Virus record (IMG/VR): IMGVR_UViG_3300035703_000059
Coordinates: 1-64,000 of that record
DNA: 64,000 nt
Strand: one strand, 5' to 3'
From: a virus
In this document: one piece after another, positions 10,994-54,787 of the stretch
Position numbering within the stretch: the stretch's first letter is position 1
Layout: each line of letters starts with the position of its first letter
The notes under the pieces: generated by a model
What the model saw: the letters and a program-made list of their open reading frames with translations, nothing else
Databases searched by the model: none
What the model was told of the DNA's origin: nothing
Program-made: the position numbers and the translations under genes

Positions 10994-11767
10994 ATGGCGA
11001 ATGGATGGAATCCCCTCATCGGCATCGGCTTCACCAGCCTCGGCATTGGCTACCTGTGGGAAGCCTACTCTCGTAACAAGACCGGGACGCCGGCAACACC
11101 GGCGGAGCCGATCACGACGAACGGCCTGCGGAGGCGGCTTCCCCCCGGCTCAACGGGCCTCGGCTACGCGGAGCCGAAAAAGGGAGGCATCCGCTCGATG
11201 AAGATGCACGCGGTCGGCACCATCGAGGACCGTGAGCGGTACATTCGCGAGCAGATCAAGAAGGACAGCCTCAACCCGAAGGTCATCAGCGCGGCGCGCG
11301 CGGTGGTGTCGGGCCGCTGCCCGAAGGCCGACGGCGGCGTGATGTGGTGCGTCAAGCCGAAGGACTCGATGGGCGAGATTCGGCTGATGTTCAAGGCCGT
11401 CGTCGACCCGAACTCGGCGCTCGCGGTGCGCTACACGCGCGACCACCCGACCGTCGACCTCTTTCCGTCGAACGAACTGCTGGACCGTCTCCCCGCAGAG
11501 GACTGCGACGGGATGGTGGTGCGGCTCGGCGCGCTTCTGCGGGCCATTGGATTCCACGTTCGCACGCGCATTGTGGCGCCGGCCGGAAAGCCGAAACAAT
11601 GGGCGCACATCTATCTGATGGTCGCGCCTGTGCCGGGTGTCGCCGACGGATGGTTGCCGCTGGACCCGACGGAGCCGGAGCGCGCGTATCGTGCGCGAAA
11701 CGCGCCGTTTTGGGAGCCGGGAACGGACCAGATCGATCCGCTGAAACTGGACGGGCCAATCATCTAA
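10994..11767 (+). CDS. Membrane-anchored transglutaminase-like cysteine enzyme
   Basis: 257 aa. Residues 7-24 form one hydrophobic span. Residues 78-240 match the transglutaminase-like fold: Cys171 in AEDCDGMVVRLGALLRAIGF, His205 in WAHIYLMV and Asp224 in LPLDPTEP give the Cys-His-Asp triad in the usual order. Such enzymes are often peptidases or amidases; in this setting an action on peptidoglycan peptides or on virion proteins is plausible. Next to it are a TM/coiled-coil protein and a LysM fusion, so a wall-acting set is likely. Substrate unknown. Confidence 0.7.
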   Translation: MANGWNPLIGIGFTSLGIGYLWEAYSRNKTGTPATPAEPITTNGLRRRLPPGSTGLGYAEPKKGGIRSMKMHAVGTIEDRERYIREQIKKDSLNPKVISAARAVVSGRCPKADGGVMWCVKPKDSMGEIRLMFKAVVDPNSALAVRYTRDHPTVDLFPSNELLDRLPAEDCDGMVVRLGALLRAIGFHVRTRIVAPAGKPKQWAHIYLMVAPVPGVADGWLPLDPTEPERAYRARNAPFWEPGTDQIDPLKLDGPII

Positions 11768-12110: not shown

Positions 12111-13316
12111 ATGTCGTGTGAGGTCGTCGCCGGAGAAGCCGCAGACGGTTCCGTCGTGTTGACGGACAATCAATGCCGCACGCTCGACATTCAGAACGTG
12201 CTGGCGTTGTCCGACGGGGCCGGAAACCACGCGGCCTGCGGCTCCAAGGCGTGCGTCTACGAGACGAGCGACCCGTCCACGCTGGTCAAGGTGACGAGCG
12301 ATTGGATGGACGTGTGGGCGCTGAAAAAGACGGCCGGGATGGCGGACGTCGTTCCCGTGAAGCGGATGTTCAAGCTGAAGGGGAAGCGGCGTTCGGTGAA
12401 CGGAGTGGCCGAGAACGCGCTGTACGCCATCGAGGTCGCCCGCGCGCAGCCGCTATCGAAGCGCGACGAGTTGTTCCTCAACACGACGGCGTTCGACGCG
12501 ATCACGCTCTACTTCGACCAGATGCTCCTCCCCGGCGTCTCGCCGAAGAGCGTCATTGATTTTCGCGAGTCGTGTCGAAAGACGGTGGATGCGGCGCGGC
12601 GCGGCGGGAAGCCGTACATGACGACGCCGCAGGCCGACCAAGCGGCGTGCGAGGCCGTGACGAGCGACGCGCTCGATGCGGTGGAGCGGATGGCGAAGCG
12701 CGGCGTCTACTTCACCGACGCCCACGCGGGAAATTGGGGCCGGTACAACGGGCGGCTGGTGGCGCTCGATCTTGGGCTTTCAGCACCGCGAGGGACACGG
12801 ACCCCGAAGGTGCCAGAACTTGAAGGGATGGGCGCGATGAACGACCGGAAGATGCAAAACATGGTGCTGTTCGGCGCGGGCGCGCTGATTCTGTTCCTGC
12901 TTCTGCGGCCGAAGAAGGCCAAGGCGGAGACGTCGCTGCCCGGCAGCGGCACCGGCAGCGGGGAGTCGATCTCGTCGCTCGGCGAGCGGCCCATCGCGCT
13001 CGACCCCGCGTTCGCGAGGGCTTACGGCCCCGTCAAGGCGTACACGGTTCGCCGGGGTGACAGCCTGTCGAGGATCGCCCAGCGCGAGTTTATGACTGAG
13101 GAACTGTGGCCGTTCCTGTGGGACATCAACCGGACGGCGACGCAGTTCGCGGTTCCCGATGCGCTGGAAATCGGCCAGACCATCTACGTCCCGACGCGAG
13201 GCTCAACGAATCGGGCATACTACACGCGGTTCGACGCGCACAAGACGTGGTACATGAGCGGCGGTCGCGGTGTTCCGCCGGAGTCTGTTTCTTCGTTCAC
13301 CGTCATCGCGCTCTGA
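12111..13316 (+). CDS. Kinase-like domain fused to a membrane span and LysM
   Basis: 401 aa. Residues 42-225 show kinase-fold hallmarks: a G-rich loop region (GSKACVYE), Lys60 in TLVKVTSD, a catalytic loop D203-AHAG-N208 and an Asp-Leu-Gly motif at D220, as in aminoglycoside phosphotransferase-type kinases. Residues 250-265 are one hydrophobic span, followed by RPKKAK. Residues 309-361 are a LysM domain (YTVRRGDSLSRIAQ, LEIGQTIYVP). All lie in one uninterrupted frame. A kinase face and a peptidoglycan-binding face on opposite sides of a membrane is the simple reading. I know no named family with this order. The kinase activity is inferred from motifs only. Confidence 0.55.
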   Translation: MSCEVVAGEAADGSVVLTDNQCRTLDIQNVLALSDGAGNHAACGSKACVYETSDPSTLVKVTSDWMDVWALKKTAGMADVVPVKRMFKLKGKRRSVNGVAENALYAIEVARAQPLSKRDELFLNTTAFDAITLYFDQMLLPGVSPKSVIDFRESCRKTVDAARRGGKPYMTTPQADQAACEAVTSDALDAVERMAKRGVYFTDAHAGNWGRYNGRLVALDLGLSAPRGTRTPKVPELEGMGAMNDRKMQNMVLFGAGALILFLLLRPKKAKAETSLPGSGTGSGESISSLGERPIALDPAFARAYGPVKAYTVRRGDSLSRIAQREFMTEELWPFLWDINRTATQFAVPDALEIGQTIYVPTRGSTNRAYYTRFDAHKTWYMSGGRGVPPESVSSFTVIAL

Positions 13317-13327
13317 GGAGTTGGCCC

Positions 13328-13984
13328 ATGTTCGCCCTTCGATATGACCGTCGCCCCGCGCGGCCGACCAACCTCGGCGAGCCGCTGACCGGCGGCACGG
13401 CGCTGTTCCTGTACCTCGGCGGGGGCGCGCTGCTCCTGTCGCTGTTTGGGCGCGGGAAGAAAAAGGCGGCCGACACGTCGACTTCTACTTCACCGTCGCC
13501 GACGTCTGATTCTGCGGCGGGGGCGATACGAGATGCGGCCAATCGGGTCGCTGACTTCACTCCTCCCCAGCTTGCGCCGTTCGTTCCGCCGGGGGGGTTT
13601 CTCATACTGGCGCCCGACATCATCCAGTTGGCGAAGGGGTCGTTCGCGAAGCGCGTGGGCGGACGCTGGTACATCGGGGGCGAGGGCGCGGAGGAGAAGA
13701 ACCCGGAGTTCACGCCGGAATGGTGGCGGAGCAACGAATCCGCAGACGTGAAGGACCGCGTCAACAGCGTGGGCTACGAGCGGTGCCGAAGCCTTCGGAA
13801 CTACTCGACGAAACAGCCGAATACCAAGGCGGACTGCGCGCACCTCATCAGCGGGGAGAGCATGGAATACTGCGTGTTCAAGAAGAACGTGCGGGCGTCG
13901 GCTGAAGAACTGAACAAGAACTGCGCGGGCAAGCTGCCGAACGACATTTACATCGCACAGGACACCGGCACCTACGGGTGGTGA
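13328..13984 (+). CDS. Single-span membrane protein with Cys-containing C-terminal domain
   Basis: 218 aa; ribosome site TGAGGAG and ATG at 13328. One span near residues 22-40 (TALFLYLGGGALLLSLFG) is followed by GRGKKK, a Ser/Thr linker and a 120-residue domain with Cys in YERCRSL, KADCAHL, MEYCVFK and NKNCAGK, suggesting two disulphides. It is likely exposed outside the membrane. No family recognised. Confidence 0.6.
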   Translation: MFALRYDRRPARPTNLGEPLTGGTALFLYLGGGALLLSLFGRGKKKAADTSTSTSPSPTSDSAAGAIRDAANRVADFTPPQLAPFVPPGGFLILAPDIIQLAKGSFAKRVGGRWYIGGEGAEEKNPEFTPEWWRSNESADVKDRVNSVGYERCRSLRNYSTKQPNTKADCAHLISGESMEYCVFKKNVRASAEELNKNCAGKLPNDIYIAQDTGTYGW

Positions 13985-18921: not shown

Positions 18922-18996
18922 TGGCTGGCGGGGTAGGAGTCGAACCTACGGCCACGCGATTAACAGTCGCGCGCTCTGCCTCTGAGCTACCCGCCA
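18922..18996 (-). tRNA. tRNA-Asn (anticodon GTT), CCA encoded
   Basis: The minus strand folds as a complete cloverleaf. The acceptor stem is TGGCGGG/CCCGCCA, the D arm GCTC-AGAGGCA-GAGC, the anticodon stem CGCGA-CTGTTAA-TCGCG with GTT, and the T arm GTAGG-TTCGACT-CCTAC. The discriminator is G and 3' CCA is in the DNA. It is antisense to all surrounding genes and sits between a terminator and the leaderless gene at 19056. It may serve translation of the element or be a leftover of host DNA. Confidence 0.93.
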
Positions 18997-36352: not shown

Positions 36353-36399
36353 ACGAAAAAAGGGGGGCGACGGCGAAAGATGCCGTCGCCCCCCGTTTC
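36353..36399. terminator. Bidirectional terminator between the converging gene blocks
   Basis: A perfect 13-pair stem (GGGGGGCGACGGC with GCCGTCGCCCCCC, 7-base loop) is flanked by AAACGAAAAAA on the left and CGTTTCC on the right. It can stop transcripts from both sides and lies precisely where the + and - blocks meet. Confidence 0.85.
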
Positions 36400-47779: not shown

Positions 47780-47962
47780 TTAGATCGAGAAATCCAGATC
47801 GGACCCGCCACCGAAAGCCGAGAAGTCGACTCCCGCTTGAGCGCAAGCCCGCACGAACCCGGCCGGGTCCGTCGCCCACATCCTACGAAAAAGCTCTACC
47901 CACGAAAGATTCGGGTCGGCCGCGATGTCCGCCTCCCCGAAAGAATCCGATACGTTCGCCAT
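47780..47962 (-). CDS. Small protein with one W-EL..M..DP repeat
   Basis: 60 aa, start after GGGGTGAATT. One copy of the helical motif repeated in the 44655 product (SWVELFRRMWATDPAGFVRA). First gene after a long leader and terminator-like hairpin, so its expression may be controlled by attenuation. Confidence 0.55.
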   Translation of the reverse strand: MANVSDSFGEADIAADPNLSWVELFRRMWATDPAGFVRACAQAGVDFSAFGGGSDLDFSI

Positions 47963-48058
47963 AATTCACCCCGTATGAAAAACCGTCCTATCGGCGGCCC
48001 GTCCGAAAACCGGCCGCCGATAGGACGGGGCGCGCGTCACCACGCGCGCCACGTCCCT
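47963..48058 (-). promoter_or_regulatory. Structured cassette 4 with attenuator-like hairpin
   Basis: A perfect 17-pair inverted repeat, CCGTCCTATCGGCGGCC (47983-47999) and GGCCGCCGATAGGACGG (48012-48028), 12-base loop. On the minus strand it is followed by TTTTTC, the form of an intrinsic terminator, 20 bases before the start at 47962. A C-type hairpin (GGCGCGCG-type arms, 48030-48050) precedes it. Confidence 0.7.
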
Positions 48059-48720
48059 TGATTTGCTTTCCCCGTTCACTCTACCGATAACAGAGGCGAC
48101 GCGCCGTGAGGCTTCCCGATTGGGGCCGCTTGTTCCGATAGTGCCGACGTTACAGAGGCGGATTTCTAGTAGAGGGATCCGCTTGTCGCGACAACGTGCC
48201 TTCGATACTTGACGCTCGATTGACCGACGGGAGGCGACCGACAAGCGCGCCGGGAAAATTCACCGGGCGCCGTTCGCGCTTCTCGCCACCTATCGAGCGC
48301 TTCGCATAGGGAAAGGCTAAAGGGCTTCTATTCGGACCCGCTTCTTCCGCGCGGGTCGCACGATCCGATTCGGACCGTTTTCGTTTTCAGCGCGCCCCCC
48401 TTAGTAGCCTTCGGGGGGGCTTCCTTCTCTATCCCGTTCCGATTCGACACCCCGCGAAGAGGGGGGTGCGCTCGGACCCGATCTAGAGCCTTCGTGACGG
48501 GCAACGGTCCCGTCTTTCGCGCGTCGAATACGCGTCTACTGTATGCAATCGAAGGCTTCGATTGGGTCGCGCGGCTGGCCCGTCCTAAGACGGCGCTTCG
48601 CGCTTGCCTTTCGCGAATCGTTCGACTCCGTTTCCGGTCCGATAGCCTTTCGGCCGATTCGTGCCTTCGATTGTCCGGGGGGCCGGACTAGCAAGCCCCC
48701 CCTTCGTCTAACCTTTCGTC
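48059..48720. other. Gene-poor leader region
   Basis: No convincing coding region on either strand; short frames here lack ribosome sites and protein-like composition. It has several hairpins (GCCCCCC/GGGGGGC near 48390; CACCCC/GGGGTG near 48450; CAATCGAAG/CTTCGATTG at 48546-48564) and a perfect palindrome TTGTCGCGACAA near 48184. It would be the first 660 bases transcribed from the promoters at 48725-48928. Confidence 0.6.
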
Positions 48721-48724
48721 CCTC

Positions 48725-48754
48725 AGTATAGTGCGAGAGGGGTCAAGGTGTCAA
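48725..48754 (-). promoter_or_regulatory. Tandem promoter P1
   Basis: Minus strand: TTGACA (48754-48749), 18-base spacer, TATACT (48730-48725). Near-consensus sigma70. Spacer contains CCCCTCTCGCA, shared with P2. Confidence 0.75.
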
Positions 48755-48811
48755 GCCCTTTTCGTCTTACCGTCGGGGGCCGTCGTTCAAGCCCCCCAAT
48801 CTTTCCCGCTT

Positions 48812-48840
48812 AGTATATGCGAGAGGGGGCGCGGCGTCAA
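48812..48840 (-). promoter_or_regulatory. Tandem promoter P2
   Basis: Minus strand: TTGACG (48840-48835), 17-base spacer, TATACT (48817-48812). GGGGCTTGAC and the spacer sequence CCCTCTCGCA repeat those of P1. Confidence 0.75.
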
Positions 48841-48899
48841 GCCCCTTTCGCTCTTTTTTCGGTCCCCCGCCTAGCAGGGCGGACCGTCGAACGTGAAAG

Positions 48900-48928
48900 A
48901 GTATGCCACGGGGCGCCCCCTTACGCAA
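48900..48928 (-). promoter_or_regulatory. Tandem promoter P3 (weaker)
   Basis: Minus strand: TTGCGT (48928-48923), 17-base spacer, CATACT (48905-48900). Same orientation and similar GC-rich spacer as P1 and P2. Confidence 0.45.
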
Positions 48929-49075
48929 GTAAAAAAAGAAGCCCCCTTGTCGATTCCGGCCGGACGGGGCCAGGGCGCGCCCCCCCTCGCATGATTCTAG
49001 GAATAGAGGCAAATCGATAGGGGGCGCAGTAACTGCGAAAGGACGGCATTATCGGCCCTCTCTCGCATGAAACCT

Positions 49076-49150: not shown

Positions 49151-49180
49151 GAAAAACCCCGCGAGCTTTCGCTCGCGGGG
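49151..49180 (-). terminator. Rho-independent terminator of the 49.2-58.7 kb unit
   Basis: Minus strand: CCCCGCGAGC-GAAA-GCTCGCGGGG followed by TTTTTCGTTTC. Ten perfect pairs with a GAAA tetraloop. It ends transcription of the HTH/ATPase group before the gene-poor region. Confidence 0.9.
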
Positions 49181-49209: not shown

Positions 49210-49485
49210 TCAGCGCCAGAATCCCAGCGGCATCGATGGCGCGTCGCCGCCCGCCTCTGCCTCTGTCTCCGCCTTCTTGGGACGGTCGATCTTCGTCAAG
49301 CTGGGCGCTGGCCGCTTGTCCGTGAGAATGACCCACGCATCGATTCCCACTTCCGGCAGGCCGCGCTCCCGATGAAGCTGGTCGAGCTTCTTCGCCGGGA
49401 CGCGCCCCTCGTCGATCCACTTCTGAATCGTGCGGCGCGAAACGCCCCACATCTGCGACGCCTGCGATACCGTCAACTGCGCCAT
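49210..49485 (-). CDS. Excisionase/MerR-type helix-turn-helix protein
   Basis: 91 aa, GGGAGTGACC before the ATG. LTVSQASQMWGVSRRTIQKW is a typical winged helix-turn-helix start, then IDEGRVPAKKL as in excisionase-type DNA-binding proteins. The last third is a flexible Ala/Glu tail. Regulator or directionality factor; it is last in its transcription unit. Confidence 0.75.
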   Translation of the reverse strand: MAQLTVSQASQMWGVSRRTIQKWIDEGRVPAKKLDQLHRERGLPEVGIDAWVILTDKRPAPSLTKIDRPKKAETEAEAGGDAPSMPLGFWR

Positions 49486-51837: not shown

Positions 51838-52136
51838 CAGTCGTCTCCCCGGTTGATCAACGTCACCGCGTCCTCGGCCCCCGACTCCAACTCCGCGATG
51901 CGCTCGGACAATTGCGCCACAATCGCGCGGTACGTCTCAATCTGGTGTTGCACCGGGTCGGGGCAGTCGTCGGTGTATCCCGGCCAATTCACCGCCGAGA
52001 ACTGGTCCGCGCCCCACAGGTAGAGGAAATACTCCCCGAACTCCATCGACTCACACAGCGCGGCCACGATCCGCCCGATGTAGTTCGTCTTCTCCTCATG
52101 CGTCATTCCGTCCGTCACTTCTTTGTCCAGCAGCAT
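51837..52136 (-). CDS. Small acidic protein, unknown
   Basis: 99 aa, start overlapping the polymerase stop. Helical, acidic, with Trp/Tyr-rich centre (YFLYLWGADQFSAVNWPGY). Co-translated with the polymerase gene; could be an accessory. Unknown. Confidence 0.55.
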   Translation of the reverse strand: MLLDKEVTDGMTHEEKTNYIGRIVAALCESMEFGEYFLYLWGADQFSAVNWPGYTDDCPDPVQHQIETYRAIVAQLSERIAELESGAEDAVTLINRGDD

Positions 52137-54787
52137 CAGACCTCACTCCATCGAAGCCCAATCTTGGGCTTCGCCGCAAAGGACACGTCCGGCAAACCCG
52201 GCACGGTCCGGTTCATCGCTTCCTTGATCATTCGCGCGACCGTGTTCGCATCGCACTCGCACCCCGGCGGGCAGAATCCGAACTCGCGCTCCTTCTCGAT
52301 CACCTTGCCGTCCGCATCCAGCGGCCGGTACTCGTCGTGCGGACACGGCACCTCAAACGTCAACGCGTCGTGGCATTGGTTGACGAGGCCCGTCCCCGGC
52401 CCCCACAACTCGCACTTGAGCGGACCTTCGACGAGGTCGAACGTCGCCATGTGGATGATGTGCGCGCCCGCGCTCTGGACGCCGAAATTGATGATCTCGT
52501 TGAACTTCTCGCCGTCGAGGAAGTCACGCCGACGGCCGAGAACCGGGTCGACGATGTACCCCACCGTCCGATAGGTGTCCAAGCACTCGTCCCACCACTT
52601 CTGAAGCTGCGGAATCTCCCGCAGCCACCGCTTCCGAAGCGTGGCGACTTGATTCAGCGTCAAGTCGGGGTACATCAGCGTGCCGTCCGCGTTCTCCGCG
52701 CTCGTCACCAGCCCATGCACCGTCTCGTCGCCGGAGCCATAGAACGACGCGTAAGCGATGCTCTTCGCGATTTTTCGCAGCTTGTCCCATTGGTCCGACT
52801 TCGGCACCAGCCCGTCGAACTGCTTTCCGAACATCATCGATGCCGTCTGCGCGTGCGGATCGCCGCCAGCCGAAAACGTCTCCAAGTAGCGCGGGATTTG
52901 GGCCACCGACGCGATGATCCGAAGCTCCAACTGGTCCGCGTCCGCGCCCACCAGCACCCGCCCCGGCTCCGCTTTCACCAGCGCCCGCAGGTGCTTCGGG
53001 AAGTTCTGGGCGTTCGGATTCGATGACGACAGCCGGCCCGACGTCGTCCCGTGCGCGTTGTAGTCCGGGTGAATCCGCCCGTCCGGCAGAATGAGGCCGC
53101 GAGCCGCCTCATCCTGCTCGTCCTCGCTGCGAAACTGCACCCCATCGACCGGCTGGCCGTAGGGGACGAGCCGCGTGACGTAGGTGCCGTACTCCTTCGC
53201 CACCTTGCGATACCGTCGCAAGGAATCGATGAACTTCACGATGTTCTCGCGGTCCCGGTTCTGCGTCCGCAGCAGGCGAAGCGACTCGTCCGACGTCGAG
53301 GGGTCGCCCAGCTTCGTCATCTCGGCCGGCGTCAGCCCCCACTTGTCGAAAAGCAGGTCGCGAATCTGATAGGTGCTGTTCGGATTGAGGTTCGGATTCT
53401 CGGCGTTGACGCGCGTCTCCGCGAGGTAGTCGGCGATCTTGACCCGAAGCTCGTCCGACACCTTGTTCCGCAGCGGCCGGTCCACCCACATCCCCGTCCG
53501 ATGCAGGTCCGCGCAAATCGCCTGCACCCGATGGTCGAATCCCACGACGTTTTCCTGCCGCCGCAGCTTCACCGCGTCCGCCAGCTTCGGCATCACGCGC
53601 GCCGTCACCACGCAGTCGACGGCACAGTAGGTCGTCAACTCCTCGTCGGTCTGCGCCACCTCCGCCGTGTGCGCGGCCTTCCATGACGTGACGTCGGTGT
53701 AGACGCTGCCGATGTACCCCAGCTTGTGCGGCAGTTCGCTCTCGACGCTGCGGTGCAAAAGGATGGTGTCGAGGAGCGGCTTCGGCGTGACGCCGAAATG
53801 CTGCTCGATGACGATGCGGTCGAAGTACCCCGCGTTGTGGCCGACCTTCAGCTTCGTGTCATCGATGAAGAAGTCCCGCAGGATGCCCCGCAGCCGCAGC
53901 AGGTCCGACGCGGTGTACCACGGCGGATCGACGAGCGAACCGTTCGGGCCTTCGATGCTCTTGAGCGAGACGACGATGGACGCGTTCTCGTTCGCGATGC
54001 CCACGCACTTGAGTTCCGCGATGAGCGGGTCGTCGAACGTCGTCTCGACGTCGTAGATGTACGGGATGTCCGTGCGCGCGAGGAACGCCTCGACCTCGTC
54101 GGGCGACGGCGTCAAATCGATGTACGGGTGCTGCCAGCCCAGCCCACCCCGGAACCATCGGAACGCGCGTGACAGGTCGCTGCGGAACGCCCGCGTCCAG
54201 CGCCGCGCCCGCAGCACGAACGCGGGGTGCAGCGTCGGCAGCACCTTCACGTCCTTCGGCTTGTCGCCGCCGGTGATGAAGTTCCCGATGACGTCGAACC
54301 GGCCCTCGACCGGGCCACCGCGAATCTCGGTGACGCTCGCCGCCTGCCCCGTCACCGCTTGGAAGGCGATCTTCCCCAGCGTGATGATGTTCTTCGTCTG
54401 GCCGATGTCGTGCATCAGCCTCGGTCGGCAGCAATCGATGGGGTGCGGCAGGGGGTCTTCTTTCGCCGCGATCCGCTTCTTGTTGTCCCGCGACAGCTTC
54501 ACCAGCACGCGGTCCAGTTCGTTCTCTGGTGGCCGGCACGCGAGGGCCGTCGTGATCGAGACGGCGCCGCGCGGGATGCCCACCGCCTTCAGCGACTCGT
54601 TGAACTCGATGCCTGCCGAGTCGACGAGCGGGCGCTGCTCCTCGACGTCCTTCTCACGCGGCGACTCCGTCACGACCACCGCGACAGAACCGGGCCGAAT
54701 CTCGGCCGGGACCGGGACACCCGCGCGCGCCTTTCGCAGAACGCACTCGTCGCATCGCGCGCCGTCGTCTCGCGGGTCGTAGATCAT
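52136..54787 (-). CDS. Fusion of uracil-DNA glycosylase and family A DNA polymerase with 3'-5' exonuclease
   Basis: 883 aa. Residues 1-215: family 4/5-type UDG with four Cys for a 4Fe-4S cluster (CDECVLRKA, LACRPPEN, PIDCCRPRL) and VVVTESPREKDVEEQRPLVD. Residues about 240-420: 3'-5' exonuclease with YIYDVETTFDDP, GHNAGYFDR and TYCAVDCVV. Residues about 470-883: PolA with motif A ADADQLELRIIAS, motif B DKLRKIAKSIAYASFYG and motif C QCHDALTFEVP. In motif C the usual HDE Glu is Ala. UDG-PolA fusions are known in phages. This should be the replicative polymerase; the fusion may remove or tolerate uracil. Confidence 0.9.
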   Translation of the reverse strand: MIYDPRDDGARCDECVLRKARAGVPVPAEIRPGSVAVVVTESPREKDVEEQRPLVDSAGIEFNESLKAVGIPRGAVSITTALACRPPENELDRVLVKLSRDNKKRIAAKEDPLPHPIDCCRPRLMHDIGQTKNIITLGKIAFQAVTGQAASVTEIRGGPVEGRFDVIGNFITGGDKPKDVKVLPTLHPAFVLRARRWTRAFRSDLSRAFRWFRGGLGWQHPYIDLTPSPDEVEAFLARTDIPYIYDVETTFDDPLIAELKCVGIANENASIVVSLKSIEGPNGSLVDPPWYTASDLLRLRGILRDFFIDDTKLKVGHNAGYFDRIVIEQHFGVTPKPLLDTILLHRSVESELPHKLGYIGSVYTDVTSWKAAHTAEVAQTDEELTTYCAVDCVVTARVMPKLADAVKLRRQENVVGFDHRVQAICADLHRTGMWVDRPLRNKVSDELRVKIADYLAETRVNAENPNLNPNSTYQIRDLLFDKWGLTPAEMTKLGDPSTSDESLRLLRTQNRDRENIVKFIDSLRRYRKVAKEYGTYVTRLVPYGQPVDGVQFRSEDEQDEAARGLILPDGRIHPDYNAHGTTSGRLSSSNPNAQNFPKHLRALVKAEPGRVLVGADADQLELRIIASVAQIPRYLETFSAGGDPHAQTASMMFGKQFDGLVPKSDQWDKLRKIAKSIAYASFYGSGDETVHGLVTSAENADGTLMYPDLTLNQVATLRKRWLREIPQLQKWWDECLDTYRTVGYIVDPVLGRRRDFLDGEKFNEIINFGVQSAGAHIIHMATFDLVEGPLKCELWGPGTGLVNQCHDALTFEVPCPHDEYRPLDADGKVIEKEREFGFCPPGCECDANTVARMIKEAMNRTVPGLPDVSFAAKPKIGLRWSEV

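Follow-up and report, generated by a model that had tools for sequence, protein, structure and literature searches.

What is the long gene-free stretch that lies ahead of a ParB-like gene in this phage: the template of an abundant non-coding RNA, or an attenuated leader whose read-through switches on the genes that follow? The initial annotation had offered both readings. The window analysed here, bases 1–64,000 of a virus record of 75,406 bases (∼65% G+C), is from a tailed phage. Its plus strand carries tail protein and LysM/endolysin genes, and its minus strand carries UDG-PolA polymerase, SbcC-like, Sak4-like, exonuclease and ParB-like genes. The polymerase (52136–54787) combines DNA polymerase A with a uracil-DNA-glycosylase-like domain and is of a large uncultivated phage group. 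A tRNA-Asn gene, the only tRNA gene, lies on the minus strand within the plus-strand gene block (18922–18996), and the window has four identical copies of a 13-nt ribosome site plus start codon (GGAGGCTTCGATG), at several gene starts.

The leader and its promoters in the window

The last gene of the operon upstream of the stretch encodes a small HTH protein of 91 aa (49485–49210, minus strand as for all transcribed features below; Pfam HTH_17, 1.7e-08). The terminator scan placed an intrinsic terminator with a 10 bp stem, a GAAA loop and a TTTTTC tail at 49180–49157. Since the HTH operon is closed by this terminator, the leader forms a transcription unit of its own. No gene was called in the window between the HTH gene, with its stop at 49210, and the ParB gene. 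Our own reading of the sequence, as distinct from the gene-caller output, gives a 60-aa ORF (47962–47780) with a ribosome-site-like stretch, GGGGTGA; no Pfam match was found for it when 59 of the 60 residues were searched. The ParB-like protein of 347 aa (47746–46703; PHROG 1033 ‘ParB-like partition protein’, 5.7e-20) and further genes complete an operon of 11.5 kb (47962–36413). Genes were called with a simple codon-usage script, which missed short genes and mis-called some antisense frames, for example one that overlaps ParB and extends into the terminator; the gap lengths given here are therefore approximate.

Three tandem promoters firing leftward had been proposed, and two of them stand. 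P1 (48754–48725, TTGACA-18-TATACT) and P2 (48840–48812, TTGACG-17-TATACT) were found by promoter scan on the minus strand and have 11/12 and 10/12 sigma-70 consensus bases respectively. The features expected of a sigma-70 promoter, namely −35 and −10 boxes spaced by 16–18 nt and a score above chance, were present in both and not in P3 (48928–48900, TTGCGT-17-CATACT). The latter is a weak promoter-like site read by eye; as it has 7/12 consensus bases and was not reported by any promoter scan, the three promoters are really two and a possible third. Over 2 kb the sigma-70 scan gave two sites where 0.3 would be expected. Apart from P1 and P2, no site in the whole 75,406-base record reaches 10/12 consensus bases, the chance level being 0.33 per strand as judged from six shuffles of the record. 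From 47962 down to 36413 the minus strand had no further site with at least 9/12, and the lack of another strong promoter there fits, without proving, control of the operon by read-through. P1 and P2 share a 33-nt unit at 85% identity, part of which recurs twice upstream in inverted orientation, on the plus strand at 49055–49070 (repeat D4, inverted pair I7) and 48979–48994 (repeat D4, inverted pair I4). These are putative operator-like repeats, and to judge from the sequence the P1/P2 unit with its inverted upstream copies looks like an operator array.

Beyond the promoters about 690 bases are without a called gene; the initial annotation had given 660 gene-free bases. From P1 the candidate long non-coding leader is ∼740 nt (48718–47976), and the placing of the −10 boxes predicts RNAs of about 740, 830 and 920 nt from P1, P2 and P3. 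The whole leader including its hairpin was more stably folded than 20/20 shuffles (z −4.8). Without the terminal hairpins it was better than 40/40 shuffles, with z −2.8 in the sense and −1.7 in the antisense orientation; a slightly shorter cut gave −2.9 and −2.8, near-equal on both strands, so the difference between sense and antisense is not robust. Windows of 120 nt across the leader showed little fold excess (mean z −0.56), and five coding controls gave z from −0.9 to +1.3 on the sense strand.

A repeat search of the leader body found a 12-nt word twice, at 48671–48660 and 48206–48195, with 9 nt complementary to 48556–48548, between the two copies. A repeated 12-mer arises in 22/500 shuffles of the leader and a repeat with a 9-nt complement in 0/500. 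The word pair and its complement, chosen post hoc and seen in a single lineage, may form a second switch. Tetraloops were not enriched in the window leader (2 versus 1.0 in shuffles), the content of unpaired A did not differ from that of shuffles, and no twister ribozyme match was found in the window. Rfam searches gave no relative of the leader RNA and a search of the plasmid collection with the leader DNA gave no match.

Hairpins predicted to compete in the window and its relatives

The leader ends in a hairpin, H2 (48028–47983), which with 17 perfect pairs is the longest perfect hairpin in the window (z −8.9) and which continues for three more pairs past a G-G mismatch. It is followed by TTTTTC (47982–47977) and ends 20 bases ahead of the ATG at 47962 of the 60-aa ORF; the 17-pair hairpin and T run that had been described just before the first gene are thus confirmed. 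The terminator scan of the window did not list H2; its tail resembles those of both plain window terminators (TTTTTC at 49157 and TTTTTTC at 36362). Folding placed a 9-bp hairpin, H1 (48050–48029), immediately upstream with a 5′ extension, so that it spans 48057–48029 in all. The extension, 48057–48052, can pair with 48027–48022, the 5′ base of H2. In the window the H2 state is the more stable by ∼10 kcal/mol. Further along this operon a hairpin scan found a second H1/H2 pair (45261–45189), placed between the 436-aa gene and the one that follows it. Its long hairpin (45238–45189) is intercistronic, has its own H1 and lacks a T run. The competitor of this second pair was equalled by 2, 6 and 23 of 300 shuffles with 8 arm bases, and by 10, 8 and 45 of 300 with 6 arm bases, for three upstream lengths.

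Viral contigs were scanned with alignments of the polymerase, SbcC, ParB and HTH proteins. The order SbcC, HTH, long gap, ParB was found in three lineages: the window, L008, and the pair L088 and L089, which are 99.86% identical over the gap. L008 and L088/L089 are uncultivated lineages whose DNA polymerases are each about 58% identical to that of the window. In both L008 and L088 a longer homologue of the window HTH protein is followed by 1.4–2 kb without a recognised conserved gene, an exceptional 16-bp hairpin and a homologue of the ParB-like protein, each in the same place as in the window; two ORFs were called between the hairpin and ParB in L088 (14039–14200 and 14202–14534). L091, with a polymerase 60% identical, had no HTH or ParB hit, no gap after SbcC and no hairpin of at least 13 pairs in the stretch examined. 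L108 has a ParB-like gene and lacks the leader, and the more distant mapped relatives had no gap of leader size after SbcC. ParB and HTH scans of the viral contigs found no further lineage with the layout, the remaining matches being already known records. No relative was found by single-protein searches of the viral contigs (polymerase, ParB), in the genome contigs or with the SbcC-like protein in the phage collection. The ParB profile matched 0/15 relative records, with no positive control among the 15.

The leader bodies of the three lineages could not be aligned (alignment z 1.8–2.3, not significant), and DNA searches of the phage collection with all three leaders gave no match. The L088 body gave z −3.3 sense and −1.6 antisense in one cut and −1.3 and −1.0 in another; it alone was enriched in tetraloops (5 versus 1.0; 2/200 shuffles). 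The L008 body had no excess fold stability (z +0.35), and no sigma-70 site was reported within the stretch of L008 scanned. Given that the fold results differ among cuts and lineages, the evidence for a conserved folded body is mixed.

The idea that H1 and H2 compete arose in the window, and L008 and L088 served as its tests. There is one exceptional hairpin per lineage, of 17, 16 and 16 perfect pairs in the window, L008 and L088, and in each case it lies between the leader and the downstream genes. The energy of the H1 extension is 8.0, 11.2 and 15.6 kcal/mol in the same order, and this was matched by 38/500, 1/500 and 0/500 shuffles of the upstream sequence. By this measure the mutually exclusive upstream hairpin is strong in both relatives; in the window it is weak, and 14–23/300 shuffles were as good with 8 arm bases and 37–69/300 with 6. 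As background, 28 hairpins with arms of at least 13 bp, made distinct by sequence from a pool that included overlapping loci, were taken from 2.87 Mb of fetched phage DNA and examined in both orientations, giving 56 tests. A z above 3 was obtained in 2/56, which were the H2 of L008 and of L088 in the sense direction; the second window hairpin ranked third (z 1.98) and the window H2 sixth (z 1.57). Antisense competitors gave z −0.8, 1.3 and 1.1 in the window, L008 and L088, and neither plain window terminator has such a competitor (72–300/300 shuffles as good). What is constant in the three lineages is the H1/H2 geometry and not the sequence of the leader body.

Two further features of the relatives were observed. 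At 12778–12953 of L088 there are four to five tandem repeats 31–34 nt apart, the last 61 nt on, which run up to and into a promoter-like site and are a putative operator array. The palindrome GAATCGATTC occurs 17 times in 22,574 bases of L008 and 16 times in 21,641 bases of L088 (0.00–0.05 expected), about every 1.3 kb within and between genes, and is absent from the window and L091; it could be a site for ParB or another protein, or a host-type iterated palindrome (cf. HIP1).

Possible roles of the leader

Directly supported are the promoter matches, the lack of called genes, the hairpins, their predicted exclusive pairing and the recurrence of this geometry in two diverged lineages. The recurrence of the layout in two distant relatives suggests, from sequence comparison, an RNA switch ahead of a gene cluster. 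Our tentative reading, to which we give not quite an even chance, is that P1 and P2 drive a long leader ending in a bistable attenuator, which yields a discrete RNA by default and allows read-through when H1 wins. P1 and P2 would serve as sigma-70 promoters of the host type, with the HTH protein probably gating them through the surrounding operator-like repeats, and would transcribe the ∼740 nt non-coding leader. By default the 17-bp H2 would form beside the U tract, transcription would stop and a discrete structured RNA would be left. If H1 formed first and extended, it would take the 5′ base of H2 and draw the H2 stem off the U tract, and polymerase would pass into the 11.5-kb operon, from the 60-aa ORF and ParB onward. 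Some signal would presumably tip the balance between H1 and H2.

In favour of the switch, both of the record's best promoters are directed into the leader region, HTH, long gap, long hairpin and ParB are syntenic in L008 and L088/L089, and the window has a second H1/H2 pair in its own operon. Against it, the window competitor is weak, with the H2 state ∼10 kcal/mol ahead, the leader bodies are unalignable, and L008 has neither fold excess in its body nor a sigma-70 site in the scanned stretch. A terminator hairpin with a U tract, as expected of an attenuator, is present in the window (17 bp and TTTTTC) and absent in L008 and L088; the second window pair lacks the U tract too, so termination at these three places is doubtful, and in L008 and L088 there may be another type of terminator or a processing site. 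A leader of such length is, to our knowledge, unusual for an attenuator. As for the two readings of the initial annotation, the promoters and hairpin fit both, and the comparative evidence speaks more for a 3′-terminal, attenuator-like switch. The two can also hold together, because termination by default would itself yield a discrete RNA.

The first alternative is a stand-alone large ornate RNA like GOLLD or ROOL, abundant, structured and acting in trans, with H2 merely its terminator. The size of 0.7–1.0 kb, the strong promoters and 3′ hairpin and the sense-strand fold excess of the window (z −2.8) and L088 (z −3.3) agree with this, as does the phage setting, which GOLLD and ROOL share (PMC12286853). 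We regard it as rather unlikely. Rfam gave no GOLLD or ROOL match, with the E limit at 10 for the window stretch and at 0.5 for L008 and L088, the bodies are unalignable and that of L008 is of ordinary stability, no tRNA gene is near the window leader, and the competition between H1 and H2 would be left unexplained.

If instead leader and operon formed one transcript, H1/H2 could be an RNase III-like processing site at which it is cut in the long stem. In keeping with such a site, the stems of L008 and L088 have 16 perfect pairs and no U tract, and the second window pair is intercistronic. Downstream of the ParB-like gene, L192, from the same record as L008, contains four successive twister-P5-like sequences (11103–11165, 11640–11707, 12252–12318 and 13494–13566; E 9.4e-05 to 0.067). 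Two of the four have E below 0.001, one is above the gathering score, and the first three sit in gaps between called genes. Such elements would cut the L008 operon RNA into pieces, which makes cutting of this RNA plausible and processing a serious rival. Its probability is nevertheless low to our minds, given that H2 of the window bears the terminator-like TTTTTC and that a processing site has no need of a mutually exclusive upstream hairpin. That the region acts as DNA, as a ParB centromere or a replication origin with incidental inverted repeats, is very improbable: the ParB-like gene adjoins and tandem repeats precede the L088 leader (four to five, 31–34 nt apart, the last 61 nt on), but these repeats are upstream of the leader and not inside it, there is no A+T-rich stretch (62% G+C) and only the sense orientation has a strong competitor.

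Taking the attenuator reading further, the locus might represent a phage control element of a new kind, which we consider doubtful. In such an element a host promoter would drive a long RNA whose body is nearly free to vary, while a fixed bistable pair of 3′ hairpins, reused inside the operon, would decide between release of the large RNA and expression of the ParB-like operon. If so, RNA regulation would be kept by geometry alone, almost without recognisable sequence conservation, and family searches based on sequence would overlook such elements. An early large phage RNA would then be linked to control of a ParB-like operon, and further elements could be found by searching for long hairpins with a competitor arm instead of for sequence.

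Comparison with known systems

In transcription attenuators and the expression platforms of riboswitches an antiterminator overlaps the terminator. The present leader is alike in that the upstream hairpin overlaps the 5′ base of a terminator-like hairpin, a T run is present in the window and the leader precedes an operon. It is unlike them in that the leaders are 0.7–1.0 kb long, no Rfam element, recognised ligand or leader peptide was found and the T run is absent in two of the three lineages. Searches of the open-licence PMC literature yielded no report of an element of this sort ahead of the ParB gene of a phage.

PMC12286853 describes GOLLD and ROOL as large RNAs of phages that are frequently encoded close to tRNAs and whose function is unknown, and ROOL as ∼0.66 kb and coded in phages and prophages. 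With GOLLD as described there the leader shares the character of a large non-coding phage RNA; it differs in that no covariance-model match was found, in preceding a ParB-like gene and in not being near tRNAs, the single tRNA gene of the window (18922–18996) being ∼29 kb away. ROOL, as described there, is likewise a large RNA coded in phages and prophages. The leader again gives no covariance-model match to it and is not near tRNAs, and unlike ROOL it ends in competing hairpins.
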